Shown here one piece after another: positions 1,806 through 21,719 of a DNA stretch of 26,504 nt. A program made the position numbers and the translations under genes. Source of the DNA: a virus; IMG/VR virus record IMGVR_UViG_3300037264_007179, positions 1-26,504 of that record; one strand, 5' to 3'. How positions within the stretch are numbered: the first letter of the stretch is position 1; the number at the start of each line of letters is the position of its first letter. The notes under the pieces are model-generated. The model saw only the letters and a program-made list of their open reading frames with translations, did no database searches and was not told the DNA's origin.

Positions 1806-1834
1806 AGTGGAGTAGACCGAAACTTTTAATGGAT

Positions 1835-2191
1835 TGGAGATGTTGGGAGTCGAACCCAAGTCACAGCAATTTAACCAAAAGACTTCTACACGCTTATTTT
1901 GTTGTTTAATCTAAACTTGCATAAGAACAGCAAACAAATCTCATGCTAGTCGTTGCAACTAATCTTAGCTTTAGAACAGTTGCCATTCTAAAGAGCAGCC
2001 AAATTTTACATTGGACTTCCAGACGCTATTGGCATTCGCTTCTGTCGTCCACCAACGGTTATTAGGCCGCTAGAGCATACTCATTCTGAGTTGCGTTTAG
2101 AACTTTTGATCGACTTTTTAAAGTAGCCTGTCGATCAACTACTGCGTGCATTCCGATGGTCCCAATTCCTGCTCGATACCATTTCATCCCC
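1835..2191 (-). ncRNA. ssrA: tmRNA (SsrA), trans-translation RNA, tag ATQNEYALAA
   Basis: The ends pair as an alanine acceptor stem: 5' GGGGAUG (2191-2185) with CAUCUCC (1842-1836), including the G3-U70 wobble recognised by alanyl-tRNA synthetase, then discriminator A at 1835. CCA is not encoded. A T-arm with GGGTTCGACTCCC precedes the 3' end. An H-type pseudoknot upstream of the tag is formed by 2139-2143 with 2122-2126 and 2130-2138 with 2106-2114. The tag frame starts at the resume codon GCA (2094-2092) and reads ATQNEYALAA, then two TAA stops (2064-2059). The YALAA ending matches bacterial degradation tags. Length 357 nt is normal for one-piece tmRNA. The product, with SmpB, would rescue stalled ribosomes and tag peptides for ClpXP-type proteases. 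No smpB is seen here. It ends just before the 1766-1805 hairpin. Confidence 0.97.
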
Positions 2192-3214: not shown

Positions 3215-3270
3215 TTAGTTTCCAGAGAAGATTATGTCCATGTCTTCTCATAATCTTCTCTGGAAACTAA
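3215..3270. terminator. Perfect 22-bp inverted repeat between convergent genes
   Basis: Bases 3215-3236 and 3249-3270 are exact inverted complements with a 12-base loop. The repeat begins just after the TAA of the plus-strand gene (3208-3210) and covers the last codons of spoVR on the minus strand, whose stop is at 3232-3234. It probably terminates transcription from both sides, although T runs are short (TATTTTA on the minus side). The stem is unusually long for an intrinsic terminator and is half protein-coding. Confidence 0.75.
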
Positions 3271-6056: not shown

Positions 6057-6112
6057 TTTGCACCTCTCTTTTCATAATTTATTCTATCTCTTTGAACTTG
6101 GTATCTGGAGGC

Positions 6113-6355
6113 TCACTTCCCTCGTTTAGTGAATAACTTCTTCGGTTCCTTTATATCCCAAAATACATGTTCAGTTATATCTTTGGCATAATGGTTCCAA
6201 GCCTTGACGAATCGGACACCATCAATGCCGTTTTTCACTGCATTTTGGTACATTTGAAGAAAAACAGTTTGATCTTTGTGCCTCAAATTACACAAGTTGA
6301 AAACTATGGTTCTGTTGCCATTTTGATATTCTTTTACGTCGTCTGCATCAGTCAT
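6113..6355 (-). CDS. Orphan 80-aa protein between prkA and the DUF444 gene
   Basis: A soluble 80-residue protein beginning MTDADDVKEYQNGNRTIVFN, with no membrane segment, no cysteine pair pattern and no family I recognise. The ATG at 6355 has a good GGAG ribosome site seven bases upstream. It lies downstream of the 17-bp hairpin that follows prkA and about 57 bases before the DUF444 start, so it heads the DUF444-SpoVR transcript or is expressed by read-through. Composition (mixed charge, aromatic residues, NHYAKD, FWDIKEP) suggests a small folded domain. An accessory factor of the triad is possible from position alone. Confidence 0.75.
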   Translation of the reverse strand: MTDADDVKEYQNGNRTIVFNLCNLRHKDQTVFLQMYQNAVKNGIDGVRFVKAWNHYAKDITEHVFWDIKEPKKLFTKRGK

Positions 6356-6372
6356 TATAATCTCCTATAAAC

Positions 6373-6434
6373 AAATTGGACTCTCCCACATATAATTATG
6401 CATTACTTTTATAATTCGTGGGAGAGTCCAATTT
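6373..6434. terminator. 17-bp inverted repeat after prkA
   Basis: Bases 6373-6389 and 6418-6434 are exact inverted complements with a 28-base AT-rich loop, immediately after the prkA stop (6441-6439). On the minus strand the stem ends in AATTTG, a poor T run, so termination may be partial. It would set a step in expression between prkA and the downstream DUF444-SpoVR pair, or act as an mRNA-stabilising 3' structure. Confidence 0.65.
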
Positions 6435-6438
6435 ATTT

Positions 6439-8526
6439 TTACTTATCATCTTCGTCCATAGCGGTACGGGCAAATAATGAGCCGACATAATCCAACACAT
6501 CCGAAGCGGACTTGTCGTTGTAACCATAATTGTCGATCAATCGCTTCTTAATAGCGTCAATCTTGTCCTGAACGTCAGGAGCAACCACAGTTGCTTCCGA
6601 GACATTAAGAGCAGACAACTTAATGTGATCTCTTGTATCTTCAAACAGCCTGGCTTCCAAAGCTTTCCTCAAATCAGGGTTACTATCCCACTTAAATCTC
6701 TTGCCATCAGTAGCCAAGTCACCAATGAAGGCTGCAATCATGCGGCGGAAATCATCAACACCCTGGTCTGGAATGCCAATCTTTTCTTCGATAGAACGCA
6801 TCAAACGCTCGTTTGGTGGTTCGTCACGACCAGTTAACTTGTTTTTTATCTTGGACTTACGGATATAAGCCATGATACATTCAATATAATTAGCACAAAG
6901 TCTTTCAATTACCTTTTCGTCACCCACTAGAGCCTTTCTGACTTCATCCTTGAGAATTTCGTCCAACTCTTTTACAGCAAGGTCAACACAACTGTTGTAA
7001 CGTGCTACGTCTTCCTTTTTGTTAATCAGGGCGTTGTTATCCAACCCTGACTTAATTTCATGGAGAACCATGAATGGATTTATATAGTCATGGTTGTTGC
7101 TTAAACAGTTGGAAACCTTGTCCTGAACATATCTGGCGGACACACCCATTGTCATACCTTCGTTCGGGTGTTTATCATGCAATTCCTTGACTGTATCTTC
7201 TGTGTAGCCAGGTAGAGCTTCGCCGTTATAAAGTCTGACTTTCTGAACCAAAGTCAATTTGCCATCTTTGTCATCATCCAAACGGGTCAAAATGGCCCAT
7301 AAAGCAGCGATTTCAAGGGTATGTGGAGCAACGTGCTGGCGGACTTTACCACCACCATAATCCTGTTCCAAAACCTTAATTTCATCAGACCAACGCAAGA
7401 GATAAGGCACGTCAATTTTCACAGTTCGATCCTTTAATGCCTCCATATACTGATTATTTCTTAGGCGCTCATATTCTGGATTGTTTGTATGACCGATGAT
7501 TGCTTCATCAATAGCAATCTGTGGAAACTTCTTAGGCTTGATCTGGCGTTCCTGACTAGCTCCTAGTAGGTCATATAGGAACTCCTGGGCCAGTTTGAGC
7601 ATTTCGATGAACTCAACAATACCTCTATTACCGACACAAAACTCGCCGTCGAAATTGAATGCACGGGGGTCTGAGTCGGCTCCGAAGTGACCGATCTTAT
7701 CGAAGGCGATATCACCTGTTAATTCCGTTGCGTCCTGGTTCTTTTCGTCCTTTGGCTGGAAGGTAGCGATACCGCAGCGGTCAGCTTCTGAATAAACCTT
7801 GCGGATAACTCGGATGTGATCCTCAACGATTTTCTGCCAATTGCCCTTATTAATCCGCATCAACTCTTCCATGAACTTACGGCAGCGTGGGTCTAGTTCG
7901 CCGTCACAGATTAGGCTATAAATCAGATTCTTCTTATCATCAACGGTCTGGTCACGAAGAACTTCGTTCAACTCCTGCACGACCTTCTTGCGGAAGGTAA
8001 TAGGGATAAGTTTGAGCGGTTCTTCGTGCATTGGACATTCGTTTTCAACATGTGTATAAATGCCTGTTGCGCCTGTTGGCAGGTTGACCCACTTGAAGGA
8101 ATACCACGACCCTTCTGGCTTACGGGAATACTTCTCCAATCCCCTTTTGATTCTTCGAAGAATGGTTGATTTGGACGAACCGACTGGTCCATGTAGCAAT
8201 AGAACTCTTTTTTCTGTGCCATAACCGCCAGCAGCACCTTTGAAGAATTTAACCAATTCGTCTAGGGTTTCTTCTAGTCCAAAGATAGGAATTTCAGGAT
8301 CATCAAAGAAATTATAATGGACCAATTTCTTCTTATATCTTTGGAATTCATTACAACCTTCGCTCATAATCATGTCATACAAGCGTTGGTAGGCAGTCCT
8401 TACCAACAAAGGGTTCGCATAAACTCGGTCAAGATATTCAGCGAATGATATTTCTTCATGCAGTTCTTCAAACTCTTCTTTATTGAACCTAGCGGCCAAG
8501 CGATTGAGGTGTTGGCACTTTTCCAT
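6439..8526 (-). CDS. prkA: PrkA-family serine protein kinase (YeaG-like)
   Basis: A 695-residue protein, somewhat longer than the usual 630-650. The N-terminus (FAEYLDRVYANPLLVRTAYQ, residues 28-47) is the PrkA entry segment. The AAA-type domain has Walker A GPVGSSKS (113-120). The conserved segment with IAIDEAIIGHTNNPEY and NQYMEALKDRTVKIDVPY follows near residue 340-375, and the C-terminal PrkA domain after it. Known members phosphorylate serine/threonine in host proteins and respond to starvation; an ATP-dependent protease activity has also been proposed for the family. The start ATG at 8526 has AGGAGA upstream. It is the first gene of the prkA-orphan-DUF444-spoVR group, with a TATAAT-containing promoter at 8556-8584. 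The extra length lies mostly in the C-terminal domain. Confidence 0.95.
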   Translation of the reverse strand: MEKCQHLNRLAARFNKEEFEELHEEISFAEYLDRVYANPLLVRTAYQRLYDMIMSEGCNEFQRYKKKLVHYNFFDDPEIPIFGLEETLDELVKFFKGAAGGYGTEKRVLLLHGPVGSSKSTILRRIKRGLEKYSRKPEGSWYSFKWVNLPTGATGIYTHVENECPMHEEPLKLIPITFRKKVVQELNEVLRDQTVDDKKNLIYSLICDGELDPRCRKFMEELMRINKGNWQKIVEDHIRVIRKVYSEADRCGIATFQPKDEKNQDATELTGDIAFDKIGHFGADSDPRAFNFDGEFCVGNRGIVEFIEMLKLAQEFLYDLLGASQERQIKPKKFPQIAIDEAIIGHTNNPEYERLRNNQYMEALKDRTVKIDVPYLLRWSDEIKVLEQDYGGGKVRQHVAPHTLEIAALWAILTRLDDDKDGKLTLVQKVRLYNGEALPGYTEDTVKELHDKHPNEGMTMGVSARYVQDKVSNCLSNNHDYINPFMVLHEIKSGLDNNALINKKEDVARYNSCVDLAVKELDEILKDEVRKALVGDEKVIERLCANYIECIMAYIRKSKIKNKLTGRDEPPNERLMRSIEEKIGIPDQGVDDFRRMIAAFIGDLATDGKRFKWDSNPDLRKALEARLFEDTRDHIKLSALNVSEATVVAPDVQDKIDAIKKRLIDNYGYNDKSASDVLDYVGSLFARTAMDEDDK

Positions 8527-9363: not shown

Positions 9364-10152
9364 ATGATAAGCATATGTTCGGTTGTGCTAGATTTAACTA
9401 AAAAATATGAAGAAATTTTTTACGAGTCAATAATTCAAACCACCAAGCTAGTGTCAGAAGTAATACTAATTAAAAACGATGCCCCATGCTGTTTTTATAA
9501 AGAATGGAAAGAACGGAATATCCAGTTTAAAGAATATGGAAATAGTGAACAGGCAGGCGGTTTCGCTTGCGGCGATCAGCATGGACTTGGTTTGAATGTG
9601 GCAGTCGAGAAAGCAACTAACGAAACTGTTTATCTTTGTGACCCTGATCTTTTTTTCATGTCAGCAGCGGATGAGTTATTTTATGAACTCAAAAAAAGAT
9701 ACAACCTGAACGCAATTGGTTGTTCACACCATTCGGCTACAGAGTTAGCAGGCACTTTTTTCCCGTGGCATGGGAATATCATGATGGACAAATCAGATTT
9801 ACCACCGATGGATAACGATTTCCTTAAAGAAGATGTAAAAGTGCCTGGAAAGTATTTGATGGCTGGTGCAGGGATAACTTACAGGGATGTATACCCAAAC
9901 CCTACTGGTAATTTTGACACCGCATCGGGGTTATGGCTTTGGGCACATGAAAATCATTGGAAGTGGATGAGCTTCCAAAGCATTGACACACACTGCTATG
10001 TAACCAAGTTTTGTAGAAGCAATGTCAAGATGTGTGAAAGATTTCCGATGCAAAAAATAATCCATCATGCTGTGAGCGGGTCTATCGAGAAGGAGGTGTG
10101 GGAACCCTACGCTGCCGTTTATCAAGAATGGAAAAATGAGGAACAAGAATAA
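9364..10152 (+). CDS. GT-A-like glycosyltransferase, DPD family, copy 1
   Basis: A 262-residue protein, first of six paralogs here. The family pattern is an N-terminal beta strand (MISICSVVLDL), an HGLGL helix start (73-77), an acidic DPD after a hydrophobic strand (93-95, CDPDLFF), then ADE, YNLNAIGCSHHS, a K-x-DLPP segment, GNFDTASGLWLWA, W-K-WMSFQ and a C-terminal IIHH. DPD fits the metal/nucleotide-sugar DxD site of GT-A glycosyltransferases, but I cannot name a CAZy family; donor and acceptor are unknown. There is no signal peptide or membrane span. The ribosome site is weak (AGAGAAA). It opens the plus-strand cassette, and the next copy starts directly after its stop. Glycosyltransferase assignment is inferred from motifs. 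Confidence 0.8.
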   Translation: MISICSVVLDLTKKYEEIFYESIIQTTKLVSEVILIKNDAPCCFYKEWKERNIQFKEYGNSEQAGGFACGDQHGLGLNVAVEKATNETVYLCDPDLFFMSAADELFYELKKRYNLNAIGCSHHSATELAGTFFPWHGNIMMDKSDLPPMDNDFLKEDVKVPGKYLMAGAGITYRDVYPNPTGNFDTASGLWLWAHENHWKWMSFQSIDTHCYVTKFCRSNVKMCERFPMQKIIHHAVSGSIEKEVWEPYAAVYQEWKNEEQE

Positions 10153-11130
10153 ATGGAAAAAATCAGCCTCTGCACTGTATTAATAAACGAAATTAAAGAT
10201 TGGCTAGAGATAATGATTCAATCTGCTTTGGAGAAACTGCATAACCTCCATGAAATCATAATATGTGATATAGATGCTGAGTTTTATAGACAAGAGAGCC
10301 AAGAAAAAATTGGTAACGTTCTTATCCGCAGAATTAGTTTGCCGCTTTTTTATGAATTTACAAATTTAGTAAATTCCAATATATCACGATACATCCGTCA
10401 TAGCCCCTCCGTCATTACCATAAAAGACCTGGCCGATTACAATAAAAGGGCTATAGTTGAAATTAAAGGTTCTTTTGGACACGCATTAGGATTGCATGAA
10501 TGTATCAACAATGCACATGGAGATTACATATTTTTTTGTGATCCAGATGTAATTTTTTATACAAACGTTGATGAAATTTATTTAGAGCTTATGATAAAAC
10601 ATAATTTAAATTATGTTGGATGCGCACATGAAACAGCCGAGAAACTGCCTTATGGACATTTTCCATATTTGGCAAATTCACTGGTAAAAAAGAACGATCT
10701 TCCTGACATGAACTTTTTGACAAATTATATATATTTTAATGACTGTTTACGAATGCCTGAAAATCTCGAATATTTTAAAGAATTAAGAACACAGTTTACT
10801 CAAACATCAAAATATTTAATACGGGGCTGTATCCCTGAAATGATTGATAAATTTCAAATGTCTATTGATAAAATTATGAAAGTAGATTTTGATACTGGCA
10901 GCAATTTGTATATTTGGGCTATAGAAAATAAATGGCGATGGCTTTCATTTTTAAGCAACGACTGTCAAAACTATAAAACTTCATTCTACCGATCTAACAT
11001 TAAATTAATTGATCGTATGAAACCTCAAAAATTAATTTATCATCAATGGGGCCGATACCGATGCCAACCAAATAGTTTTCAGACGTTTCAAGAAATTTAC
11101 AAAGAATCAAAAGAGGAAGAATATGATTAG
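10153..11130 (+). CDS. GT-A-like glycosyltransferase, DPD family, copy 2 (with insertions)
   Basis: At 325 residues this is the longest and most divergent paralog. It keeps the family marks (SLCTVL, HALGLHEC at 110-117, CDPDVIFYTNVDE with DPD at 130-132, HNLNYVGCAHE, FDTGSNLYIWA, WRWLSFL, KLIYH). About 35 extra residues lie before the HALGL helix and about 30 more between the K-x-DLP and FDTG segments. Such insertions usually alter acceptor choice in GT-A enzymes. The ATG follows the previous TAA with no gap and has GAGGAA upstream. Its last eight bases overlap the start of the fossil copy (11123), showing the same ATGATTAG junction as copy 3/copy 4. Catalysis is not demonstrated. Confidence 0.78.
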   Translation: MEKISLCTVLINEIKDWLEIMIQSALEKLHNLHEIIICDIDAEFYRQESQEKIGNVLIRRISLPLFYEFTNLVNSNISRYIRHSPSVITIKDLADYNKRAIVEIKGSFGHALGLHECINNAHGDYIFFCDPDVIFYTNVDEIYLELMIKHNLNYVGCAHETAEKLPYGHFPYLANSLVKKNDLPDMNFLTNYIYFNDCLRMPENLEYFKELRTQFTQTSKYLIRGCIPEMIDKFQMSIDKIMKVDFDTGSNLYIWAIENKWRWLSFLSNDCQNYKTSFYRSNIKLIDRMKPQKLIYHQWGRYRCQPNSFQTFQEIYKESKEEEYD

Positions 11131-11233
11131 TATTTGCACTCTTCTAATACGAATTAACCTTGGCATCTCTCATCACTGCAATGCAAAATTGCAGCGGTTA
11201 GCTTATAAAATTTCAGAGGAAATAGAAGAATGA
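11123..11233 (+). pseudogene. 36-codon remnant of another DPD glycosyltransferase copy
   Basis: The frame starts MISICTLLI, the family N-terminus, then immediately loses similarity and stops after 36 codons with EEIEE. It begins inside the end of copy 2 (ATGATTAG overlap, identical to the copy 3/copy 4 junction) and ends by ATGA overlap with copy 3. The simplest reading is a former full copy that lost nearly all its body while 5' and 3' junctions survived; its terminal codons resemble the Glu-rich C-termini of neighbours. A short hairpin (CTGCAAT/ATTGCAG) lies inside. It may still be translated and serve only to couple its neighbours. Confidence 0.6.
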
Positions 11234-12057
11234 TTACCCTATGCAGTGTGGTCCCACCAAATTACGAAGAATATGCAAAAACAATGCTTGAATCTATTGT
11301 TACTACAACCAAACATATCACCAACGTACTGCTAGCTTGTCCAATTACTAATAGCAGAGATACAAACGTTATTAAGGTATGGAATGAACGTGGTATAAAT
11401 TTCAAAAAATTCCATGCACCAATGAATTGTCCTGAACATGGTCATGCACTAGGTTTACACGCTTGTATTAATCGGGTAGAAACTGAATTCATTATGTTTT
11501 GTGATCCTGACTTATTCCTATGTTCTGCGGTAGATGAACTGTACTTAAATTTAATGAACAAATATAATCTAAATTATATTGGGTGTTCACATCACTCCGC
11601 TGTGGCTAACGCCTATTCTTATTTCCCCTACGTTATGAATTCTCTAGTGCGCAAAAAGGATTTGCCAGATGAAAGCTTTTTAAGAGGACTGCTTAAATTC
11701 AGGAATGGGTGTATTATGGTCGAAGGATTAACTGCCGAGGACAATTTTGAGCCAGCAGATGGAAAATACTTAGTATCTAGCCCTATTCCTGGGCATTGGC
11801 ATAAATTGCCCAATATTAAACCTAACGTTTTTTTTGACACAGCAGTTAATCTTTGTCTATGGGGAATTGAACAAAACTGGCGGTGGTTATCCTTTCAAAC
11901 TCCTGATGCTCATAATTATACAACTAAATACTTCAGAGGAAATTTCAAATTTACAGACCGCATACCTTTTCAAAGACTAATCTATCACGACGTTCGACAA
12001 AGTTCTATTTTAATGCATGAAATGTACAAAAAGTTTAAGGAGAGCCAGAATGATTAG
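11230..12057 (+). CDS. GT-A-like glycosyltransferase, DPD family, copy 3
   Basis: A 275-residue paralog: MITLCSVV strand, HALGLHAC (72-79), CDPDLFL with DPD at 92-94, VDE, YNLNYIGCSHHS, a KKDLPDESFL segment, a short insert around residues 155-190, FDTAVNLCLWG, WRWLSFQTPDAHNYTTKYFRGN and LIYH. This last stretch, W-R-W-L-S-F-Q-x-x-D-x-x-N-Y, is the most conserved signature after DPD across the array. The ribosome site AGAGGAAA precedes the ATG. It overlaps copy 4 by eight bases. Soluble, no signal peptide. Function as for copy 1, by motif. Confidence 0.8.
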   Translation: MITLCSVVPPNYEEYAKTMLESIVTTTKHITNVLLACPITNSRDTNVIKVWNERGINFKKFHAPMNCPEHGHALGLHACINRVETEFIMFCDPDLFLCSAVDELYLNLMNKYNLNYIGCSHHSAVANAYSYFPYVMNSLVRKKDLPDESFLRGLLKFRNGCIMVEGLTAEDNFEPADGKYLVSSPIPGHWHKLPNIKPNVFFDTAVNLCLWGIEQNWRWLSFQTPDAHNYTTKYFRGNFKFTDRIPFQRLIYHDVRQSSILMHEMYKKFKESQND

Positions 12058-12868
12058 TCTCATTACAGTGTCACTTGAAAGATTAAAACCATTCCTTGAA
12101 ATATTTTTCAAATCAATTGTTGAACAAACCAAAATAATAGATGAGGTTTTACTGCCCTGCGCTGACCTCGAAGAAGGATATCTTGAAGAATGGAAAGAAC
12201 GTGGTATTAAATTTATAAAATTCGGAGCAAAACAACACCTATTTGGGGCTAACTGTCCTGTAACCATCTGTGTTGACCATGCTTGCAATCTTCATGCTGG
12301 ACTAAAACGTGCTAAGAATGATTTCGTATTTATGTCTGATCCTGATGTTTTCTTTTATAGTGCGGTAGACGAGTTTTATATGAACCTTATTGATAAGTAT
12401 AAACTAAACTATATTGGCGTATCACATCCTGCGGCTATTACACAGGCATTCACTTATTTCCCAAACATACTAAACTGCATGGGTAAAAAGAGTGAATTTC
12501 CTGATGATAACTTCCTCAAAGGTAAACTCTGTTTAGACAATTGTATACCTGACACGAATATTTCCCTCGCAGGCAAATTTTTAGCCGCTGGTTCTATCCC
12601 TGATGTAAAACAGGATTTTCCAAATCCAAATGGACATTTCGAAACGGGATGCAATATGGTTTTATGGGCAAAAGAAAAGCAATGGCGATGGCTCTCATTC
12701 CAAACCGCAGATGTTTTTAATTATACATCTCAATATTATCGTGGCACAATAAAACCACAACCTTTACCGAAAGTTAAGTTGCTTTATCACGCAACAAATG
12801 GTTCTGTGTGTCCAGAACATTTTACTAGATTTAAAAAAGCTTATGAAAACTCCAAAACAGCTTTTTAA
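12050..12868 (+). CDS. GT-A-like glycosyltransferase, DPD family, copy 4
   Basis: A 272-residue paralog starting at the ATG at 12050, which has AAGGAGAG upstream and aligns with the MISxxTV family start; the longer in-frame start at 12017 only adds out-of-family residues. Marks: DHACNLHAG in place of HALGLHEC (77-84), SDPDVFF with DPD 97-99, VDE, YKLNYIGVSHPA, FPDDNFL, FETGCNMVLWA (FET replacing FDT), WRWLSFQTADVFNYTSQYYRG and LLYHATNGS. The altered HALGL helix sets it apart and pairs with copy 5, which shares the KQ-LF segment and FETGCN. A 39-base gap separates it from copy 5. Confidence 0.8.
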   Translation: MISLITVSLERLKPFLEIFFKSIVEQTKIIDEVLLPCADLEEGYLEEWKERGIKFIKFGAKQHLFGANCPVTICVDHACNLHAGLKRAKNDFVFMSDPDVFFYSAVDEFYMNLIDKYKLNYIGVSHPAAITQAFTYFPNILNCMGKKSEFPDDNFLKGKLCLDNCIPDTNISLAGKFLAAGSIPDVKQDFPNPNGHFETGCNMVLWAKEKQWRWLSFQTADVFNYTSQYYRGTIKPQPLPKVKLLYHATNGSVCPEHFTRFKKAYENSKTAF

Positions 12869-12907
12869 ACTTGCATTTCTGAGGCACCAATATTATTATA
12901 TTATCAA

Positions 12908-13711
12908 ATGATTAGCATTTGCACAGTAATTTTGGATAGGTTGCAATCCTTTTTAGACATCAACATAGAATCAATTTGTGAACAATTAGAACATGTCAAA
13001 GAAGTGATAATTTGTAATGTCGAACAAGATTCTTCTTACAACCGAGAAGAAATCATCAAGGGGAAAACCTTCAAATACTTTGGCGGCAAACAAAATTTAT
13101 TTCAGGTTTCAGGTGCTAATTCCATTTGCGAACAACACGCCCTTGGTTTGCACATGGCGATTGAACGAGCCACTCATGAATTTATTTGGCTAAGCGATCC
13201 CGATATATTTTTCTACAATGCAGTAGATAAAATTTTTTTAGATTTGATAGGACAATATAAGCTTAATTGCATAGGAATATCCCACCAAAATGCCATGAAT
13301 GAAGCATATGGATTTTTTCCAACAGTTGCAAATTTAATGGTTAGAAAAAAGGATTTACCTGACAATACTTACTTAAAAAAAGAGCTTACACTTAATTTTG
13401 AAACTCCTAACAAATATCTGTTCCCTGGACGAGCAAATATAGAAGATGAATTTTACTACAATCCTAAAGGTCATTTTGAGACAGGGTGCAACCTGCTTCC
13501 TTGGGCAATCAAACAAAACTGGCGCTGGCTTTCTTTTCAAACTTTAGACTGCTCAAACTACAGCACGTTACCATATCGAAATCAACCAAGATCAAACATA
13601 AAATTACCAAAACAAAAATTACTACATCACTCAGGATTATCTGCTGGACCACACAATAAAATTGTTCCGTTTTTGAATGCCTATAAAAATTTCAAAAAGG
13701 ATGAATTATGA
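12908..13711 (+). CDS. GT-A-like glycosyltransferase, DPD family, copy 5
   Basis: A 267-residue paralog: MISICTVILDRL, GGKQNLF, EQHALGLHMA (75-84), SDPDIFF with DPD 97-99, VDK in place of VDE, YKLNCIGISHQ, KKDLPDNTYL, FETGCNLLPWA, WRWLSFQTLDCSNYST and KLLHH. It is closest to copy 4 by the shared KQxLF segment, the SDPD form and FETGCN, so these two look like a recent duplication. No Shine-Dalgarno sequence is visible in the AT-rich 39-base leader, unlike other copies. It overlaps the methyltransferase by ATGA. Confidence 0.8.
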   Translation: MISICTVILDRLQSFLDINIESICEQLEHVKEVIICNVEQDSSYNREEIIKGKTFKYFGGKQNLFQVSGANSICEQHALGLHMAIERATHEFIWLSDPDIFFYNAVDKIFLDLIGQYKLNCIGISHQNAMNEAYGFFPTVANLMVRKKDLPDNTYLKKELTLNFETPNKYLFPGRANIEDEFYYNPKGHFETGCNLLPWAIKQNWRWLSFQTLDCSNYSTLPYRNQPRSNIKLPKQKLLHHSGLSAGPHNKIVPFLNAYKNFKKDEL

Positions 13712-14313
13712 ACTTAGATAGTATATTCGTTAAATACAACACAGATAAAGGGAGTGGTTCTCATAATTATTCGCCTATTTATGAGCAATATTTGCAAGGC
13801 TTAAAAAACAGACCAATTAAAATGCTGGAAATAGGAGTTCAATCTGGAAGTTCCATTCACGCTTGGTATGAATATCTCCCCACAGCAACAATTATAGGCA
13901 TGGATGTTGAAGATAAAAGACACCTTGAAAATGATCGTATCAAAATATTTAAAGGCCACCAAGGAATACGCGGGCAGCTTAAAAAATTTACAGCTAAATT
14001 TGGAAAATGTTTTGATGTTATTATAGATGATGGCAGTCATTTCAACGATGACATATTAACATCTCTTGGATATTTTTATTCCCATTTAAACCCTGGAGGT
14101 CTTTATTTTATTGAAGACCTTCAAGCATGGGTAACAATAGCGATTCCAGACACCGCTTTAAAAATATTCAAGAAATTTCAAGAAACAAGAACCATTGAAA
14201 TTGATAACTTAAACCCAATGCTAAATGAAGAAATAGAGTTTGTTCAAAATAACACTAAAGCATGTAATTTTTATTGCAACGATGAACTCTTTGTTTTAGA
14301 AAAAATTGATTAA
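13708..14313 (+). CDS. Class I SAM-dependent methyltransferase, sugar O-methyltransferase-like
   Basis: A 201-residue protein. KYNTDKGSGSHNYSPIYEQYL (9-29) is the entry segment seen in macrolide/sugar O-methyltransferases of the MycE/TylF-like kind and in other small class I enzymes. Motif I is EIGVQSGSS (41-49), the acidic ribose-binding strand GMDV (64-67), and DVIIDDGSH (103-111) is the active-site strand with metal-type Asp/His residues. It probably methylates a sugar hydroxyl on the glycan made by the surrounding transferases; the acceptor is unknown. Its ATG overlaps the copy 5 stop, with AAGGA upstream. It sits inside the glycosyltransferase array, so co-expression is near certain. Confidence 0.85.
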   Translation: MNLDSIFVKYNTDKGSGSHNYSPIYEQYLQGLKNRPIKMLEIGVQSGSSIHAWYEYLPTATIIGMDVEDKRHLENDRIKIFKGHQGIRGQLKKFTAKFGKCFDVIIDDGSHFNDDILTSLGYFYSHLNPGGLYFIEDLQAWVTIAIPDTALKIFKKFQETRTIEIDNLNPMLNEEIEFVQNNTKACNFYCNDELFVLEKID

Positions 14314-14350
14314 AAATAAAACGTATAATCAGGTATAATGGAGAAAATAT

Positions 14351-15358
14351 ATGAATCACCCACACATGGCAATGACTATTGATGAATGTGTTGAACTGAC
14401 GCACTTAAAAGAAAAAGTTACAATGGTAATTCCTACTAGGAATTCTAGTATGGAATTTCTACTGTGGTCAGTATTTTCCATACTTCTGCGATCAAAACCC
14501 AATGGAATGATGGAACATTTTTGCGTATGCATTAATGGTCCTGATGAACGTACAGGGGAAACTGAAGCAGAAGATACCAAACAAAGATTTTTAGAAGAAT
14601 TAAGAGACTTGGAGTGGTATCACGCTGACGATCCAACTAACCACCGCCAAATGCCATTGACAGTGATTAGAATTTGGAGTCGCGTGGGTTATGCAGAATC
14701 TTTTGAAATGGCACTAAATTGGGTTCATACTGATGCTTATTGTTTAATGCATGATGATGTAATCATAACTAATAAAGATTGGGACCAAGAAGTAAAATCT
14801 AAGTTTTACGCTGACGACCAAGTGGCTATAGCATTTGTGCCGCCGCTGTTAGGATGCGACTGCGATCATGCTGTTCATCGCGGTATGTATCTTTTGCGAT
14901 TGCCACAAATGCAAACAACATTTGTGGTTTGTAAAAAGAAGCACATCATGAAGGTCGGGGGTTTATGGCGAGGGTTCCATGTAGCATCTGACGATAACAT
15001 GCTTCAATTTGATTTAGAAGAAATAGGGAGCATTGAAGAATTCGAAAAATTTTGGACTGAGAAAGGATTGTATAAGCAACCTGTGATGAAAACCGAACTT
15101 TATAATTTTGTAAGGCAGGAAGTAGGAGCCTGGATTTATTACAAATTAAACCAAGCTGGCTTCAAGTTTGCAGAACTAAACCCCAACAACATCCTGCATT
15201 TTGAAAAAATGAGTCATCCAGTCTGTACTCCAGAATTTAAATCAGAAGCCCTTAAGAGGAATGCTGAAGTAATTAAGGACTTAGAAAAAGAGATTTTAGC
15301 ACATCCTACATATTCACTACTTTACAAAAAATATTTACCATCAAATTTGGAGATTTAA
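14351..15358 (+). CDS. GT-A-like glycosyltransferase, larger paralog pair, member A
   Basis: A 335-residue protein related along its whole length to the next gene. It starts MNHPHMAMTIDECVELT; a beta strand VTMVIPTRNS (38-47) resembles the GT2 nucleotide-binding start. The putative DxD-type site is CLMHDDVII, within a hydrophobic strand near residue 136. Further conserved pieces are WSVFSILLR, CVCINGPDERTG, RIWSRVGYAESFEMAL and a C-terminal aromatic segment (VGAWIYYKLNQAGFKF) followed by ILHFEKMSH. No membrane span. GGAG lies eight bases before the ATG. Two perfect TATAAT sequences stand just upstream without convincing -35 boxes. Likely a glycosyltransferase; substrate unknown. Confidence 0.7.
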   Translation: MNHPHMAMTIDECVELTHLKEKVTMVIPTRNSSMEFLLWSVFSILLRSKPNGMMEHFCVCINGPDERTGETEAEDTKQRFLEELRDLEWYHADDPTNHRQMPLTVIRIWSRVGYAESFEMALNWVHTDAYCLMHDDVIITNKDWDQEVKSKFYADDQVAIAFVPPLLGCDCDHAVHRGMYLLRLPQMQTTFVVCKKKHIMKVGGLWRGFHVASDDNMLQFDLEEIGSIEEFEKFWTEKGLYKQPVMKTELYNFVRQEVGAWIYYKLNQAGFKFAELNPNNILHFEKMSHPVCTPEFKSEALKRNAEVIKDLEKEILAHPTYSLLYKKYLPSNLEI

Positions 15359-15359
15359 T

Positions 15360-16361
15360 ATGCACCCACATATGGCTTGCTCTGTAGAAGAAGCGGCGGA
15401 ATTGACCAGTATACCAGAAAAAATAACTGTTATTTACCCAACATCGCTTGGCCCAATCGAATGTTTGTTGTGGTCCACTTTTTCGCTTTTATTGCGAACA
15501 AAAGTAAAAGACTACATGGACCATTTTATTGTTTGTGTAAATGGACCAGACAAAAGAACTGGTGACGTAACGATCTGTGATAAAAAACAAGCATTCCTTG
15601 AGGATTTGCGAAAACTAAAATGGTATCACGTTGATGCCCCAAAAGCAAAAAGAGATATGCCTATCACAGTTATTCGAGTTTGGAGTCGAATCGGACACCC
15701 CGAAGCTGTAGAAATGGCGATTCCTTGGGTGCATACAGACAGTTACCTTATCATGCACGATGACCTAATTATTTGCCAGCATGATTGGCTTCGTGTAGTT
15801 GAAAAGACTTTTTTCGCTGACCCCAATGTAATCATAGCTTACGCTGAACGTACCCCAATCACATTGTTATGTGCAGGCTGCGACTCTGCAACCTATGCTA
15901 ATGAACCACTACTTCGTTGCCCACATCTGCTTTGTCTTTTCCTATGTTGTCGTAAGAAGTATATGCTAGAATTGGGATCGTCCTGGTGTGGCTATCATAT
16001 ACCAACCCCACCTTTCTATTTACATGAACGAGTGGGCGATGTAAATGAGTTTTTGAAATATTACAGCAATTTAAAAGCATTGGGTTATGATATACCACAA
16101 ACAGAAAAACCTTATAAATTCATTAGCATGGAGATGGGGGCATGGCATTATTATAATGCGGTTCAAAAGGGCTATAAATTTGTACCGATGCCACTAGACA
16201 TTATCCACTTCGGAGCAATGAGTTGGGATATTGATACTGGAAAAAGCAAGAGAATCATGAAATATCAAGACCAAGTTAAAGCACTGGAAAAGGAAATTTA
16301 TGCCCATCCTGATTACGGTCCTCTGTATAACAAATACTTGCCAGAGAAATACAAAAAATGA
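15360..16361 (+). CDS. GT-A-like glycosyltransferase, larger paralog pair, member B
   Basis: A 333-residue paralog of the preceding gene: MHPHMACSVEEAAELT, ITVIYPTSLGP, WSTFSLLLR, CVNGPDKRTG, RVWSRIGHPEAVEMAI, the acidic IMHDDLIIC, and MGAWHYYNAVQKGYKFVP with IIHFGAMSW. The two share order and spacing of all blocks, so they come from a tandem duplication and have since diverged, notably in the region after the HDD motif (residues 160-200) with several cysteines (CAGCDS, LCLFLCC). GGAG precedes the ATG; two bases separate it from the previous stop, and its own stop overlaps the next ATG (ATGA). Glycosyltransferase by motif; substrate unknown. Confidence 0.7.
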   Translation: MHPHMACSVEEAAELTSIPEKITVIYPTSLGPIECLLWSTFSLLLRTKVKDYMDHFIVCVNGPDKRTGDVTICDKKQAFLEDLRKLKWYHVDAPKAKRDMPITVIRVWSRIGHPEAVEMAIPWVHTDSYLIMHDDLIICQHDWLRVVEKTFFADPNVIIAYAERTPITLLCAGCDSATYANEPLLRCPHLLCLFLCCRKKYMLELGSSWCGYHIPTPPFYLHERVGDVNEFLKYYSNLKALGYDIPQTEKPYKFISMEMGAWHYYNAVQKGYKFVPMPLDIIHFGAMSWDIDTGKSKRIMKYQDQVKALEKEIYAHPDYGPLYNKYLPEKYKK

Positions 16362-17140
16362 TTACCATTTGCACAGTTACACTAGATGATTGTAAACATT
16401 ATTATGAAATATATAAAAAATCTTTAGCCTCAAAAGTTAGGTTGGTAAATGAGGTCTTAATTGCCAAGACAGACTCTCCCCCAAGCCATGAATTGAAGTG
16501 GGAGAATAATGGCATCAAGTTCCATGAATTCGGCATTATGAAGTCATGCCGTACAGCCCAAGGCATTGAACATGGCCTTGGGCTACATGAGTGCTTAAAT
16601 AGAGCTAACAATGATTATATTCTTTTTTGTGATCCAGATATATTTTTATACTCTGCTATAGATGAGTTTTACTATACATTATACAACAAATATAACCTTA
16701 ATATAATCGGAGTGTCGCACTGTGCTGCAACTAAATTTGCTTATACATTTTGGCCCTATTTAAGTAATATGTTTTTCAAAAAATCTGATCTACCACCGTC
16801 TAACTGGCTGAAAGATAAAATCAAAAGTGATTTTGAAACAAACGGAAAATATCTGATAAGAATAACCCCAACTAAAGAGTATGCCCAATTATTCCCAAAT
16901 CCAGAAGGGGATTTTGACACAGGATCATTACTATGGTTGTGGGGATATCAAAATAACTGGAAATGGCTTTCCTTCCAAACAACAGACGTTCATAATTACA
17001 CAAGCAAATATTATCGTGGCAATGTCAAAATAAATGAAAAAATACCAAACACAAAATTAATTTATCATGCAACTAGCGGAACAGCAGGACAAGAAGACAA
17101 TTTTATAAAATTCAAAAAAGCTTGGGAGGAAAGTCAATGA
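16358..17140 (+). CDS. GT-A-like glycosyltransferase, DPD family, copy 6
   Basis: A 260-residue paralog of the five upstream copies, separated from them by the methyltransferase and the larger pair. Marks: MITICTVTLDD, EHGLGLHECL (71-80), CDPDIFL with DPD 92-94, IDE, YNLNIIGVSHCA, KKSDLPPSNWL, FDTGSLLWLWG, WKWLSFQTTDVHNYTSKYYRGN and LIYHATSG. It is close to copies 1 and 3 in the CDPD form and the short middle segment. Its detached place shows that the array was rearranged or that the intervening genes were inserted. It is coupled on both sides by ATGA overlaps. Confidence 0.8.
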   Translation: MITICTVTLDDCKHYYEIYKKSLASKVRLVNEVLIAKTDSPPSHELKWENNGIKFHEFGIMKSCRTAQGIEHGLGLHECLNRANNDYILFCDPDIFLYSAIDEFYYTLYNKYNLNIIGVSHCAATKFAYTFWPYLSNMFFKKSDLPPSNWLKDKIKSDFETNGKYLIRITPTKEYAQLFPNPEGDFDTGSLLWLWGYQNNWKWLSFQTTDVHNYTSKYYRGNVKINEKIPNTKLIYHATSGTAGQEDNFIKFKKAWEESQ

Positions 17141-17847
17141 TCGGATTAACCACAATCGTAACAGCGACCTACAACAAAGAAATGTTCCTTCCGCAAGCGG
17201 CTGAGAGCGTGTTCAACCAAACTAAAAGGGACTGGCGATGGTGGATCATCCTTGATGGGGCCAACGAAAAAACAAGTGATTATGTATTTAACTTACAACA
17301 CCGCGACTCAAGAATAACAGCATTTGTTGAACATGTTGGGTTCCATGAAAGAAAACAGATATATCGCCCATCCATGCTGATGAACAAATATTTTCCACTA
17401 ATAGCAACTGATTACTTTTGTTGGCTATCCGATGATGATATAATGCAACCAACTTATCTTGAATCATTGGCGGGAGCTTTAGACAGGCATCCAGATTGGG
17501 ACATTGCTTTTGGTTGGTGTGATATTATCAATCAAGTGGGTGAAAATGAATGGGCCTTGCACATGTACTTTGGCAGGCATCACTGGAATAAAGAATATAA
17601 CCAGGATAACCTCCCAATGTACTCATTAGATGGCGGGCAGATTGTTCAAACAAAAACTTCCTATAATGCCCTAAAAGGGTGGCAATTCCCTATTGAGTGG
17701 GCTGATGGAAATTCATGCGATGGTTTGTATTTAAATGAATTAGCCAAAATATTTACTTTTAATCCAATAAACGAACATGTTCTAACACACCGTAGAACAC
17801 ACCTTTCAGAGAATACTAGGACTAATCCTAAATTTGAAAAGGCATAA
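17137..17847 (+). CDS. Family 2 glycosyltransferase
   Basis: A 236-residue protein starting at the ATG at 17137, which overlaps the previous stop and has GGAGGAAAG upstream. Classic GT2 features are visible: LTTIVTATYNKEMFLPQAAE (4-23), SVFNQTKRDWRWWIILDGA (24-42), and the DxD-type FCWLSDDDIMQPTYL with DDD at 99-101. It lacks the long C-terminal extension of processive GT2 enzymes and has no membrane segment, so it most likely adds one sugar in the cytoplasm. It connects the DPD array to the aminotransferase and acetyltransferase, which may make its donor. Donor unknown. Confidence 0.88.
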   Translation: MIGLTTIVTATYNKEMFLPQAAESVFNQTKRDWRWWIILDGANEKTSDYVFNLQHRDSRITAFVEHVGFHERKQIYRPSMLMNKYFPLIATDYFCWLSDDDIMQPTYLESLAGALDRHPDWDIAFGWCDIINQVGENEWALHMYFGRHHWNKEYNQDNLPMYSLDGGQIVQTKTSYNALKGWQFPIEWADGNSCDGLYLNELAKIFTFNPINEHVLTHRRTHLSENTRTNPKFEKA

Positions 17848-17848
17848 A

Positions 17849-18967
17849 ATGAAAATTGATCTATTTAAAGTGTTTATGTCTCCTGATGCACCTATCCAAG
17901 TAAGCAATGTACTTACCAGTGGATTTATTGGACAGGGACAAAAAGTTGAAGAATTTGAAGATAAATTAAAAAACCACTTCAACAACACCTTTATTAATAC
18001 CTTGAACAGCTGCACATCTGCCCTTGAATTAGCTGTACATATGGTAAAAAATGAATATGACCCAAACTGTGAAATTATAACCACCCCACTCACTTGCACG
18101 GCAACCAATTTAGCCATTATCTCTAGAGGCGCAAAAATTAAGTGGGCTGATGTAGACTCAAATACCTGTAATATCGACCTTGATGACGTAGAAAAGAAGA
18201 TCACACCGCAAACCAAAGCAATTATGGTTGTTCATTGGGGCGGCTATCCAGTTGACCTTGATAGATTAAAAGACATACAATTCAAAGCCTTTAAAAAGTT
18301 TGGTAGAAGTCCAATAGTAATCGAAGATTGTGCCCATGCATGGGGTGCTAAATATAAAGGCAAACTAATTGGCACATATGGTAATTTTGCTGCATTCAGC
18401 TTCCAAGCAATTAAACATTTGACAACTGGAGATGGGGGAATCCTTATTTCTCCTGACGACGAATATCATCAAAGAGCCAAATTACTTCGTTGGTATGGAC
18501 TTGACCGCACCAGCAGTAAGGACTTCCGCTGCGGACAAAATATTAGAGAAGCAGGCTTTAAATGGCATATGAATGATATTGCCGCTACAATTGGCCTGTG
18601 CAACATAGAACATACAAACTATTTAGTACAAAAACACAAAGATAATGGACGATATTATAACTTCGCCCTCAAAAATATTCCTGGTATCAGATTATTAGAA
18701 AACAATCCAAACTATGAATCAAGTTACTGGATTTATACAATGATGGTGCAAGATCGCCCTGATTTCGTTAAAAAAATGAAAGAAAAAGGCATTATGGTCG
18801 GACAAGTCCATGATCGCAATGATAAGCATGAATGCCTGCAAGAATATAAAGCTCTCTTGCCAAACCTAGATACTATCTCCAACGAAATGATTTGCATTCC
18901 GTGTGGTTGGTGGGTTACAAAAGAGAACAGAGAATATATCGTGAATTGCATAAAGGAAGGTTGGTAA
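17849..18967 (+). CDS. DegT/DnrJ/EryC1/StrS-type sugar aminotransferase
   Basis: A 372-residue PLP enzyme of typical length. Visible marks are SGFIGQGQKVEEFED (24-38), the NSCTSALELA phosphate/PLP site (53-62), VIEDCAHAWGAKYKG with D160, and FSFQAIKHLTTGDGG, where K189 is the Schiff-base lysine. Members convert nucleotide-linked keto sugars to amino sugars using glutamate or glutamine. The downstream GNAT gene overlaps by TAATG, a common pairing for N-acetylated amino sugar synthesis. The ATG at 17849 is preferred to the upstream TTG at 17834. No dehydratase or thymidylyltransferase for the keto sugar is seen here, so the substrate must come from elsewhere in the element or from the host. Confidence 0.93.
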   Translation: MKIDLFKVFMSPDAPIQVSNVLTSGFIGQGQKVEEFEDKLKNHFNNTFINTLNSCTSALELAVHMVKNEYDPNCEIITTPLTCTATNLAIISRGAKIKWADVDSNTCNIDLDDVEKKITPQTKAIMVVHWGGYPVDLDRLKDIQFKAFKKFGRSPIVIEDCAHAWGAKYKGKLIGTYGNFAAFSFQAIKHLTTGDGGILISPDDEYHQRAKLLRWYGLDRTSSKDFRCGQNIREAGFKWHMNDIAATIGLCNIEHTNYLVQKHKDNGRYYNFALKNIPGIRLLENNPNYESSYWIYTMMVQDRPDFVKKMKEKGIMVGQVHDRNDKHECLQEYKALLPNLDTISNEMICIPCGWWVTKENREYIVNCIKEGW

Positions 18968-19506
18968 TGAGTTTCTTATACGTCCATCCTAACACTATGG
19001 CTTTCCGCAAAGCTGATAAATGCGATGCCGCTGAGTTACTTGATTTGAAAAATGAAAGTCACTTCGGCACACATACCGTCACATATGCTAATCTTACTAG
19101 CCAAGAAAAATGGCTTGAATCTATCAGTTGTGAAACTCATTGCCCACGCAACCTTGTTTTAATTGCCAATGTCCAAGTTCTTACAAGCGGACATGATTGC
19201 GGCATATTTAAAATCTTAAATATTGATTGGCAGAATCGTCGGGCAGAAGTCGGTTGGGATATATATAAAGATTTTAGAGGACAAGGCTATGGCAAGAAAT
19301 TAGTCAAAGCTGGAGTAGATTTTACTTTTAATATTTTAAATTTACATAGACTTGACGCTCAAATACTTATAACAAATGAAGTATCCCTTAAATGTGCAAA
19401 AGCCGCAGGGTTTCAAATAGACGGCAGACAAGATAAAGCCATCTTTAAAAATGGCCAATATATAGATAATTTAATATTAGGAGTTTTAAATGAGAGTAAT
19501 ATTTGA
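18967..19506 (+). CDS. GNAT-family N-acetyltransferase, probable amino-sugar acetyltransferase
   Basis: A 179-residue protein with the RimJ/RimL-like GNAT core. The acetyl-CoA loop is RGQGYG (104-109) after EVGWDIYKDF, and the C-terminal fold continues with LHRLDAQILITNEVSLKCAKAAGF, the usual end of the domain. The ATG shares a base with the aminotransferase stop (TAATG), so the acceptor is most simply the amino group made by that enzyme, as in PseH- or FdtC-like steps. That link is contextual; protein or small-molecule acetylation cannot be excluded. The longer frame from 18892 lies inside the aminotransferase gene and is rejected. Confidence 0.88.
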   Translation: MSFLYVHPNTMAFRKADKCDAAELLDLKNESHFGTHTVTYANLTSQEKWLESISCETHCPRNLVLIANVQVLTSGHDCGIFKILNIDWQNRRAEVGWDIYKDFRGQGYGKKLVKAGVDFTFNILNLHRLDAQILITNEVSLKCAKAAGFQIDGRQDKAIFKNGQYIDNLILGVLNESNI

Positions 19507-20051: not shown

Positions 20052-20321
20052 ATGAAAGCGATTCACAACACGGTTACTTTCCTCGCAGCTGTAGTAGTAT
20101 TATCTTGGGCGGGTTGGCAGACCTATCTCCATTGGGATATCCTACTGAACAAGGCAGCGGTTGCAGTTCCACAAACACGACAACAGCATCCGCCAGCGAA
20201 GAAATGCCCTTGCTGCAATCATTGCACATGTGGCAAAACAGATTGTAAAGGCGCTTGTTGCGCAGACAAAAAATGTTGCGATGCCTGCGGTTGCACCGAA
20301 GCAGGTTGCTGCAAGAAGTAA
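20052..20321 (+). CDS. Membrane-anchored metallothionein-like cysteine-rich peptide
   Basis: An 89-residue protein in two parts. Residues 7-22 form one hydrophobic segment (TVTFLAAVVVLSWAGW), a signal anchor or signal peptide without a clear cleavage site. After a short polar linker, residues 52-87 contain 14 cysteines in 36 residues, mostly CC and CxC pairs with Lys, Gly and Asp between them, the composition of metallothioneins and of secreted cysteine-rich metal-binding peptides. It would sit at the membrane, with the cluster on the outer side if it is exported. A good TAGGAGT precedes the ATG. It is a single plus-strand gene facing hldE, with stops adjacent. Metal binding is inferred from composition; a disulfide-rich exported peptide is the alternative. 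Confidence 0.8.
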   Translation: MKAIHNTVTFLAAVVVLSWAGWQTYLHWDILLNKAAVAVPQTRQQHPPAKKCPCCNHCTCGKTDCKGACCADKKCCDACGCTEAGCCKK

Positions 20322-21719
20322 TCAAGAGGATTTAATCTTCTTGATAATCTCAGATGTGCTATGTCCTTGTATCAGAGGGACATAGCACACTTCTTTTACA
20401 CAGTCCGCTCCCGCCACCTCTTTCCCTTCCCAATCAGCCCCTTTTACCAATACATCAGGCTTAATACCTTCAATTAACTTCTGTGGCGTGTCCTCGTCAA
20501 AAGAAATAACATAATCAACATGTTCCAAAGCCGCTAAAAGCTTCATTCGCTCGTAAAGTGGTAAAATTGGACGTGTATCACCCTTTAATCTTCGAATACT
20601 TTCATCAGAATTGACCGCCACTACCAACTTATCCCCTTGATTGCGAGCAAACTCAAGAGTGTGTAAATGCCCGCTATGAATCAGATCAAAACACCCATTA
20701 GTAAAAACCAACTTGTATTCTCTGTTCCTTAAAAAATGCCAATTCTTTAATATTTTCCCGCTGGCATGAAAAGACCAAGGACCAAACATCCCTCGTTGCT
20801 TCTGCTGGACATACATTAAGCCGCCATGAAATGCTATTTTTGCCGATTCCTCAATGGTAAAACCATGCGTTATTGCCAGTGCTAAAACCCCTATAAAACA
20901 ATCCCCTGCACCGATAATATCCATCGGCTTTACATTGCACTTTGGCCTATATTCAAAGTAATCATCGACCTTGCCTGCAATGCCATCACCTTCCTGCGTA
21001 ATAATAACAGCCTTACAATTCAATTCCTTTTTAAAGAAATCACACTGTCGCTGCCAATCCTTAAACCCACTCAACGTCTCCGCTTCCTTTGAATTAGGCT
21101 TAAATATAGTACAACCATGCCAACGATCTAATGGTGCAGCTTTAGGATCAACTATAGTAACAGCTTTCGTATCAAACCAGTTAAGTTTGAAATCACCAGA
21201 AAAGATACCTTTATTGTAATCAGAGAAGATCATTACGTCTGGTTCGACCTGAAATATGAGCCACCGCATCGTTAATTCCGCTTGCAAATGCCTAAAAGTC
21301 GCATCATCTAATCCATATCTTGGCTTTTCAATGTCCCATCTGGCAACAACCTGAAACCCTTTCTCATAAAATCGCTTCTTGTGGGGGATGTAATGGTCTT
21401 TTGGCAGATTAATTCCACCCCAATACTTGACACCGTGATTACGAATAACCTTATAGGCTTCGTCATCAATAAAAGTGAATAACCGACTAACAATGTTAAA
21501 ATTATTTAGCTGATAAGCGACATTGGCAGCGCCGCCAGGAAACTTTCGAAATGGCGTATCATCTTCTGATAACAGGACATGAACATTAGCACATTCAGGA
21601 GAAATGCGGCTTACTTTGACTTGATAATCTTCATCCAACATTGCATCGCCAACAATATGAATAAAAATAGCTTTGTTGTTATGTTCTAATTTACTGGCAA
21701 ATCTCTGTAATAACTCCAT
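20322..21719 (-). CDS. hldE: HldE-like bifunctional heptose-7-phosphate kinase / nucleotidyltransferase
   Basis: A 465-residue fusion near the usual 470. The N-terminal ribokinase/PfkB domain has VGDAMLDEDY and SRISPE (23-43), PGGAANVAYQL (59-69) and the anion-hole MDIIGAGDCFIGVLAL. The C-terminal cytidylyltransferase-like domain has FTNGCFDLIHSGHLHTLEF (HxGH motif), NSDESIRRLKG and a terminal HSTSEIIKKI. HldE phosphorylates D-glycero-D-manno-heptose 7-phosphate and later adenylylates the 1-phosphate, giving ADP-heptose for LPS core or other heptosylation. GmhA, GmhB and HldD are not in this window, so they would come from elsewhere. Both domains look intact. The start ATG at 21719 has no close ribosome site. 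It lies downstream of the NadD-like gene by 14 bases. Confidence 0.93.
   Translation of the reverse strand: MELLQRFASKLEHNNKAIFIHIVGDAMLDEDYQVKVSRISPECANVHVLLSEDDTPFRKFPGGAANVAYQLNNFNIVSRLFTFIDDEAYKVIRNHGVKYWGGINLPKDHYIPHKKRFYEKGFQVVARWDIEKPRYGLDDATFRHLQAELTMRWLIFQVEPDVMIFSDYNKGIFSGDFKLNWFDTKAVTIVDPKAAPLDRWHGCTIFKPNSKEAETLSGFKDWQRQCDFFKKELNCKAVIITQEGDGIAGKVDDYFEYRPKCNVKPMDIIGAGDCFIGVLALAITHGFTIEESAKIAFHGGLMYVQQKQRGMFGPWSFHASGKILKNWHFLRNREYKLVFTNGCFDLIHSGHLHTLEFARNQGDKLVVAVNSDESIRRLKGDTRPILPLYERMKLLAALEHVDYVISFDEDTPQKLIEGIKPDVLVKGADWEGKEVAGADCVKEVCYVPLIQGHSTSEIIKKIKSS
20355..20389. terminator. 12-bp inverted repeat near the convergent ends of hldE and the cysteine-rich gene
   Basis: Bases 20355-20366 and 20378-20389 are exact inverted complements with an 11-base loop. 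On the plus strand the stem is followed by CTTCTTTTA and lies about 35 bases after the stop of the cysteine-rich gene, so it may be its terminator. It is also coding sequence for the hldE C-terminus on the minus strand. Confidence 0.5.

Follow-up and report, generated by a model that had tools for sequence, protein, structure and literature searches.

The window, a virus record of 26,504 bases (IMG/VR record IMGVR_UViG_3300037264_007179) with no further contigs, carries within positions 9364-17140 six paralogous proteins of 260-325 residues with a DPD motif, all encoded by forward open reading frames (ORFs). They are referred to here as the DPD family, and copies 1-6 of the window as Wa to Wf. 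A sequence-only reading of the window had described them as a tandem array of glycosyltransferase-like proteins sharing one order of motifs. All six ORFs are present, and they match each other by BLASTP with E values of about 1e-36 or better, which is far beyond chance. The alignment of the six has 34 invariant columns, and Wa is 33-42% identical to the other five. The suggestion that the ORFs are not genes is excluded by their orthologs and by conservation. The array is tandem only in part: Wa to We are consecutive, but a methyltransferase gene and two genes of a second GT-A family, with an HDD motif, separate We from Wf. The motifs mostly follow the order described, although Wd has HACNL for HGLGL and EFP for DLP, We has DK for DE, WLSFQ is changed to WMSFQ in Wa and to WLSFL in Wb, and both Wa and We have HH for YH. 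Wb has about 40 additional residues preceding the HALGL helix. The start of Wd was placed at 12050, not at the 12017 of the ORF finder, because ATGATTAGT at 12050 aligns with the family start.

Among the six copies, only Wb scores above the gathering cut-off of PF00535, Glycos_transf_2 (30.3 vs 23.3 bits), while 14 of 23 DPD relatives give a match with E no higher than 1, in most cases a weak one. There was no PHROG match of note, and a search of PDB sequences gave nothing significant; matches to the IL-6 receptor and to cutinase were rejected as chance. The structure of Wc was predicted with AlphaFold2 from an alignment of 23 relatives, with a predicted local distance difference test (pLDDT) score of 93 and a predicted template modelling score of 0.92, and has a Rossmann-like GT-A fold. 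Foldseek and VIA-align gave GT-A glycosyltransferases as its structural neighbours, with WrtF, plant cellulose synthase, KfiA and EXTL2 at the top, where the VIA Z score is about 13 and the fit 3.1-3.7 angstrom over about 165-190 residues. Taken over WrtF, KfiA, EXTL2, SpsA and TarP, VIA Z scores are 12-14 and the superposed length about 160-195 residues. A Z score of at least 5 was obtained for 996 of 999 aligned chains, and among the matches listed every one is a GT-A enzyme. The GT-A fold expected by the sequence-only reading is thus what the model, its neighbours and the PF00535 matches all give.

The usual catalytic set of GT-A enzymes consists of DxD metal ligands, a C-terminal histidine and an acid that acts as base. 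In the 23-sequence alignment the second aspartate of DPD is invariant and the first is kept in 22 (it is histidine in V7_6, one of the copies on the related contig L007 described below). In the Wc model the motif, with D92 and D94, directly follows the strand at residues 87-91. The F[DE]T residue that precedes T, number 203 of Wc, is acidic in 23/23 relatives, and the C-terminal histidine, H253 in Wc, is kept in all 22 that reach that far. Because the second aspartate, the acid at 203 and the histidine are conserved, nearly all copies look catalytic. The DPD proteins are almost certainly GT-A glycosyltransferases, and they are best read as soluble, GT2-like enzymes, the model lying nearest to enzymes of the GT2 type.

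Genes for a GT2 glycosyltransferase, two other GT-A enzymes, a sugar aminotransferase, an acetyltransferase and a methyltransferase lie together with the DPD copies in an operon-like arrangement (Table 1). All genes from 9364 to 19506 are on one strand, and an HldE-like gene lies just past them on the opposite strand. In nearly all of these glycosyltransferases no transmembrane segment is predicted. The methyltransferase is possibly involved in O-methylation of a glycan. The DPD and HDD families are both GT-A, though a comparison of their profiles gave no support for homology (probability 1%). Scans for promoters and terminators found no excess over shuffled sequence. The ORF at 20052-20321 (+) is small, rich in cysteine and hydrophobic over a stretch at its N terminus, and a similar cysteine-rich ORF occurs near the island of the related contig L009 (11385-11729).

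Table 1. Genes and candidate features of the glycosyltransferase island in the window (SAM, S-adenosylmethionine).
Feature	Position	Strand	Basis
Wa, DPD glycosyltransferase copy 1, 262 aa	9364..10152	+	ORF, family alignment; L007 ortholog 57%
Wb, DPD copy 2, 325 aa	10153..11130	+	ORF; PF00535 4.7e-7, above cut-off; L007 ortholog 49%
36-codon frame, possibly what is left of a seventh copy	11123..11233	+	Between Wb and Wc, absent from L007
Wc, DPD copy 3, 275 aa	11230..12057	+	ORF; AlphaFold2 model pLDDT 93; L007 ortholog 68%
Wd, DPD copy 4, 272 aa	12050..12868	+	ORF, alignment, spacing; 8-bp overlap with Wc
We, DPD copy 5, 267 aa	12908..13711	+	ORF, tree; no clear L007 ortholog
Class I SAM methyltransferase	13708..14313	+	phrog_21658 methyltransferase 4.8e-22; Methyltransf_24 just under cut-off
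Second GT-A family, copy 1, HDD motif	14351..15358	+	Alignments; homologs in five viral contigs and LR756511
Second GT-A family, copy 2, HDD motif	15360..16361	+	AlphaFold2 pLDDT 86; GT2-type PDB neighbours, Z 14-16
Wf, DPD copy 6, 260 aa	16358..17140	+	ORF; L007 ortholog 56%, likewise after HDD pair
Ordinary GT2 glycosyltransferase	17137..17847	+	PF00535 1.1e-13
DegT/DnrJ/EryC1-type sugar aminotransferase, PseC-like	17834..18967	+	TIGR03588 PseC 3.5e-58, below equivalog cut-off
GNAT N-acetyltransferase, PseH/spermidine-acetyltransferase-like	18967..19506	+	Below equivalog cut-offs
HldE-like heptose-7-P kinase / heptose-1-P adenylyltransferase	20322..21719	-	PRK11316 6.1e-77, below equivalog cut-off

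Scans of viral contigs with four different profiles each gave one and the same set of just four carriers of the DPD family besides the window; in these the copies lie in operon-like islands. These are L007 (59 kb) and L008 (187 kb), with six copies each (designated V7_n and V8_n), L009 (39 kb), with three, and L010 (21 kb), with two copies at the contig end. A tblastn search of 50,697 phage records returned nothing, and short peptide patterns, which limit the sensitivity of such a search, picked up no relative among the genome contigs of 84,980 species.

By its PrkA-like protein, the window is closest to the phage record LR756511.1, a metagenomic phage of 595,163 bases. The PrkA-like protein of the window is 85% identical to that of LR756511, against about 33% for the next phage records, and LR756511 keeps the order of SpoVR, YeaH, HldE-like and NadD-like nucleotidyltransferase genes seen in the window. 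Because of this identity and shared gene order, the window is probably a piece of a huge phage of the LR756511 clade. In LR756511 the SpoVR (81% identical) and HldE-like (71%) genes lie in the same order around a glycosyltransferase island, but the same site holds HDD-family proteins of 969, 670 and 326 residues instead of DPD copies. The whole LR756511 genome contains no DPD copy by a profile that does detect the family in other records, and its DegT/GNAT pair lies at a distance of about 230 kb, surrounded by further genes of sugar-nucleotide type (surroundings read by eye). The L007 island follows the same plan as the window, but with a different methyltransferase located elsewhere in the island. 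The comparison indicates a variable glycosylation island at a fixed site between conserved genes. In LR756511 (L048 15507-20313) the HDD domain lies within the 969- and 670-residue ORFs, suggesting fused multi-domain transferases, whereas the window has separate genes. In L008 (11893-14268) a homing-endonuclease-like ORF of 575 residues and a MerR-like ORF, read by eye, split the HDD pair.

In a tree of the copies, bootstrap values of 98-100% join Wa, Wb, Wc and Wf each to a single copy of L007. Wd occupies the position of V7_4, and We and V7_6 are without clear partners. Since the window and L007 share ortholog pairs, the duplications are older than the split of these phages, and copies have been gained or lost since then. 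In L007-L010, most adjacent DPD genes run into each other by 4 or 8 bases, which suggests translational coupling. The 36-codon frame that overlaps the start of Wc begins with MISICTL as does the family (MISICTLLIRI...AYKISEEIEE, then a stop codon), and matches the start of an L007 copy over 22 bp at 91% (blastn E 0.02); this is no more than suggestive of a DPD copy that lost its middle. In V8_3 the C-terminal YH segment is present twice, in divergent form. No recent gene conversion was seen among the copies, those of the same genome sharing only short stretches of 65-85% identity. A 100% stretch in L009 was rejected as gene conversion, since it is the overlap of two ORFs in the genome.

Variation within the family is not evenly spread. 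The sequence-only reading had pointed to two variable regions, before the HGLGL helix and between the DLP and FDT blocks, and these are real: mean pairwise column identity is 0.21 at Wc residues 43-68 and 0.23 at residues 147-203, against 0.42-0.64 in the motif blocks. Their lengths vary from 26 to 65 and from 34 to 64 residues respectively. Two helices, the first (0.26) and the C-terminal one (0.18), are about equally variable, and the lowest-confidence part of the Wc model falls inside residues 147-203. In GT-A enzymes the stretch from DxD to the ED-type acid commonly lines the acceptor site. That acceptor or donor choice is sited in the variable regions, as was proposed, is a reasonable guess.

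The copies also diverge quickly between phages. When the window is compared with L007, identity is 57, 49, 68, 43 and 56% for the DPD orthologs, against 92% for PrkA, 88% for YeaH, 89% for an FmdB-like protein, 75 and 86% for the HDD pair, and 77, 76 and 69% for the sugar genes GT2, DegT and GNAT. Non-synonymous divergence is 0.24-0.56 in the DPD copies, against 0.056 in PrkA and 0.10-0.18 in the HDD pair; GNAT, at 0.24, is on a par with Wc, the slowest DPD copy. Synonymous sites are near saturation, with a proportion of synonymous differences of 0.72-0.84 in orthologous pairs. The results show that the DPD copies mostly change fast at the protein level, which is no demonstration of positive selection. 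The description of a diversifying multi-copy set therefore holds as faster divergence than most of the surroundings, but cannot be read as positive selection, because synonymous sites are saturated.

We consider it an even call that the DPD enzymes work in the host cytoplasm and assemble a heteroglycan specific to the phage, with a virion protein as its most likely acceptor. The six proteins would be soluble, metal-dependent, GT2-like GT-A glycosyltransferases, probably inverting, in which DPD and the C-terminal histidine would hold the metal and the nucleotide diphosphate and the F[DE]T acid would act as catalytic base. To judge from the sub-equivalog family matches, phage enzymes may make at least one amino or acetamido sugar nucleotide, and perhaps an ADP-heptose-like donor, with further donors supplied as host sugar nucleotides. 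Each paralog would add a different residue, in sequence, presumably one residue per copy, and the methyltransferase may cap the glycan. The product would be a short heteroglycan on a phage structural protein, giving the virion a lineage-specific sugar coat with a putative role in masking or recognition. Mycobacteriophages are a documented case of phages that glycosylate their virions (Freeman 2023, as cited in PMC12619734). Also in favour of the heteroglycan are the lower conservation of most DPD orthologs compared with neighbouring genes and the presence of other glycosyltransferases at the LR756511 site. The proposal that the array assembles a variable glycan is partly supported by the sugar-nucleotide neighbours and by island content that differs among related phages; the glycan itself, its donor and its acceptor are inferred.

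One pointer to a cytoplasmic acceptor is that nearly all of these glycosyltransferases are without predicted transmembrane segments. The initiating sugar-phosphate transferase PF02397 is absent from all seven records, in a search that detected its positive controls, and by simple hydropathy no ORF in the 187-kb L008 contig has more than three predicted transmembrane segments. With neither a flippase- or polymerase-like membrane protein nor an initiating phosphosugar transferase found, a cytoplasmic acceptor is favoured. Several points weigh against the virion-heteroglycan reading. The island in the window holds no virion gene. The records are incomplete, so genes for a flippase, a polymerase or base modification may lie elsewhere. 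The DegT, GNAT and HldE matches fall below equivalog cut-offs, so the sugars proposed are tentative.

The same enzymes could instead remodel host lipopolysaccharide, O-antigen or capsule during infection, blocking adsorption of competitors or re-adsorption of progeny. Comparable clusters in jumbo cyanophages and pelagimyophages, with PfkB/HIGH or rfaE genes and paralogous glycosyltransferases, have been read as modifying host O-antigen or capsule (PMC7824862, PMC7029224), and genes such as the HldE-like and PseC-like ones are part of pathways for surface glycans. On the other side, hydropathy in the L008 contig showed no Gtr- or Wzx/Wzy-like membrane partner, a search made on partial records and with no Gtr profile, but neither this nor the absence of PF02397 is decisive, since host precursors and a host flippase could serve. 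We regard a host-surface target as possible, at roughly one chance in four.

A DNA target, with the array glycosylating phage DNA at hydroxymethylated or otherwise modified bases, one sugar per copy, so as to evade nucleases, is improbable. Some viruses are known to encode glycosyltransferases for the hypermodification of DNA (Pyle 2024, as cited in PMC12619734), and the DPD enzymes are predicted to be soluble and cytoplasmic. However, the hydroxymethylase of the thymidylate synthase type (PF00303) is found in no array-bearing record, these genomes being incomplete, and the window carries ThyX; for this reason virion protein is a likelier acceptor than DNA. A search for Tet_JBP (PF12851), run with no positive control, was also empty, and the aminotransferase, acetyltransferase and HldE-like genes suit a heteroglycan better. 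It is equally doubtful that some copies are neutral or decaying duplicates whose fast divergence reflects relaxed constraint and not new specificities: the possible remnant, the lack of orthologs for We and V7_6, the HPD of V7_6 and the partly duplicated C-terminus of V8_3 would fit, but all complete copies are open and keep the acid, DxD and histidine are kept except in V7_6, and four or five orthologous pairs have persisted. Overall, with middling confidence, virion protein as acceptor receives about half of the weight, the host surface about a quarter and DNA little, and the remainder goes to other or mixed acceptors.

Other features of these phages were noted. A transfer-messenger RNA gene occurs in the same neighbourhood of four related huge phages (window 1834-2191 (-), 117.6 bits with Rfam; L042 6841-7195; L038 18845-19193; L048 6281-6633), with differing tags (ATQNEYALAA, ATHNEYALAA, AENTYALAA, ANPEFAMAA). 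The trio of PrkA, YeaH (YhbH) and SpoVR, normally a bacterial stress and sporulation module, lies at 3232-8526 (-) of the window and is conserved in these huge phages, the L007 and LR756511 versions being 77-92% identical; Thermus phages have distant homologs of PrkA. SpoVR of L007 (2481-5396, -) has 971 residues vs 535 in the window, with an intein-like insert of about 430 residues with C...HN boundaries after ...YELVVN. ThyX is found in the window (22552-23442, -) and L007, and a ThyA-type thymidylate synthase near the equivalent site of LR756511 (L048 25553-26482) and beside the HDD gene of L019 (1229-2089). Ten tRNA genes, all for Ser or Leu, follow one another with small ORFs in between on the 187-kb contig of L008 (L033 6741-12862).

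The island bears on the question of which molecules huge phages glycosylate and on the reason for their large number of sugar transferases. It is a compact case, with one enzyme family, defined orthologs across phages, a conserved site and matching sugar-nucleotide genes. It would allow a test of whether lineage-specific glycans arise through transferase duplication in phages, and adds an unnamed GT-A subfamily. A bolder proposal, which we put forward tentatively and think less likely than the virion heteroglycan, is that a lineage-specific GT-A family, amplified in one huge-phage clade to up to six non-redundant enzymes whose evolution outpaces that of most neighbouring genes, forms a modular, phage-encoded glycan assembly line whose virion product differs between close phages, as an analogue of chlorovirus capsid glycosylation.

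Compared with solved GT2-type GT-A enzymes (WrtF, KfiA, SpsA, TarP/TarS and EXTL2), the DPD family shares the Rossmann-like core, a DxD after the central strand, the C-terminal histidine and an acid at the place of the ED of GT2 enzymes. Identity to the listed structures is only 7-14%, and the family has a signature of its own, HALGLH, FFP, [DE]TG and W[RK]WLSFQTxDxHNY. Judged by its sequence, the subfamily appears new, having no PHROG and lying outside every named family tested (CAZy was not among them). As far as could be found, amplification to six old, mostly fast-evolving copies is also undescribed.

The island as such is of a known kind, because paralogous glycosyltransferases in jumbo-phage sugar clusters have already been described (PMC7824862). 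As in the saccharide islands of jumbo phages, paralogous glycosyltransferases in the window share a variable island with modification enzymes and with enzymes for sugar nucleotides. The 'LPS' (lipopolysaccharide) cluster of P-SSM2 and the host recognition cluster of pelagimyophages (PMC7824862, PMC7029224) contain a sugar kinase/HIGH nucleotidyltransferase or rfaE, methyltransferases and paralogous glycosyltransferases, again in a variable island. Unlike these, the window has a single unnamed GT-A subfamily amplified up to six times, together with HldE-like, aminotransferase and GNAT genes, and has no epimerase or dehydratase. The glycan cluster of the Flavobacterium phage Immutovirus (MW353176, 49-60 kb) is likewise a single stretch of genes, for glycosyltransferases, DegT, a methyltransferase and 'pilin glycosylation'; its DegT aminotransferase is 51% identical to that of the window, but it has no DPD or HDD members and does have an epimerase.

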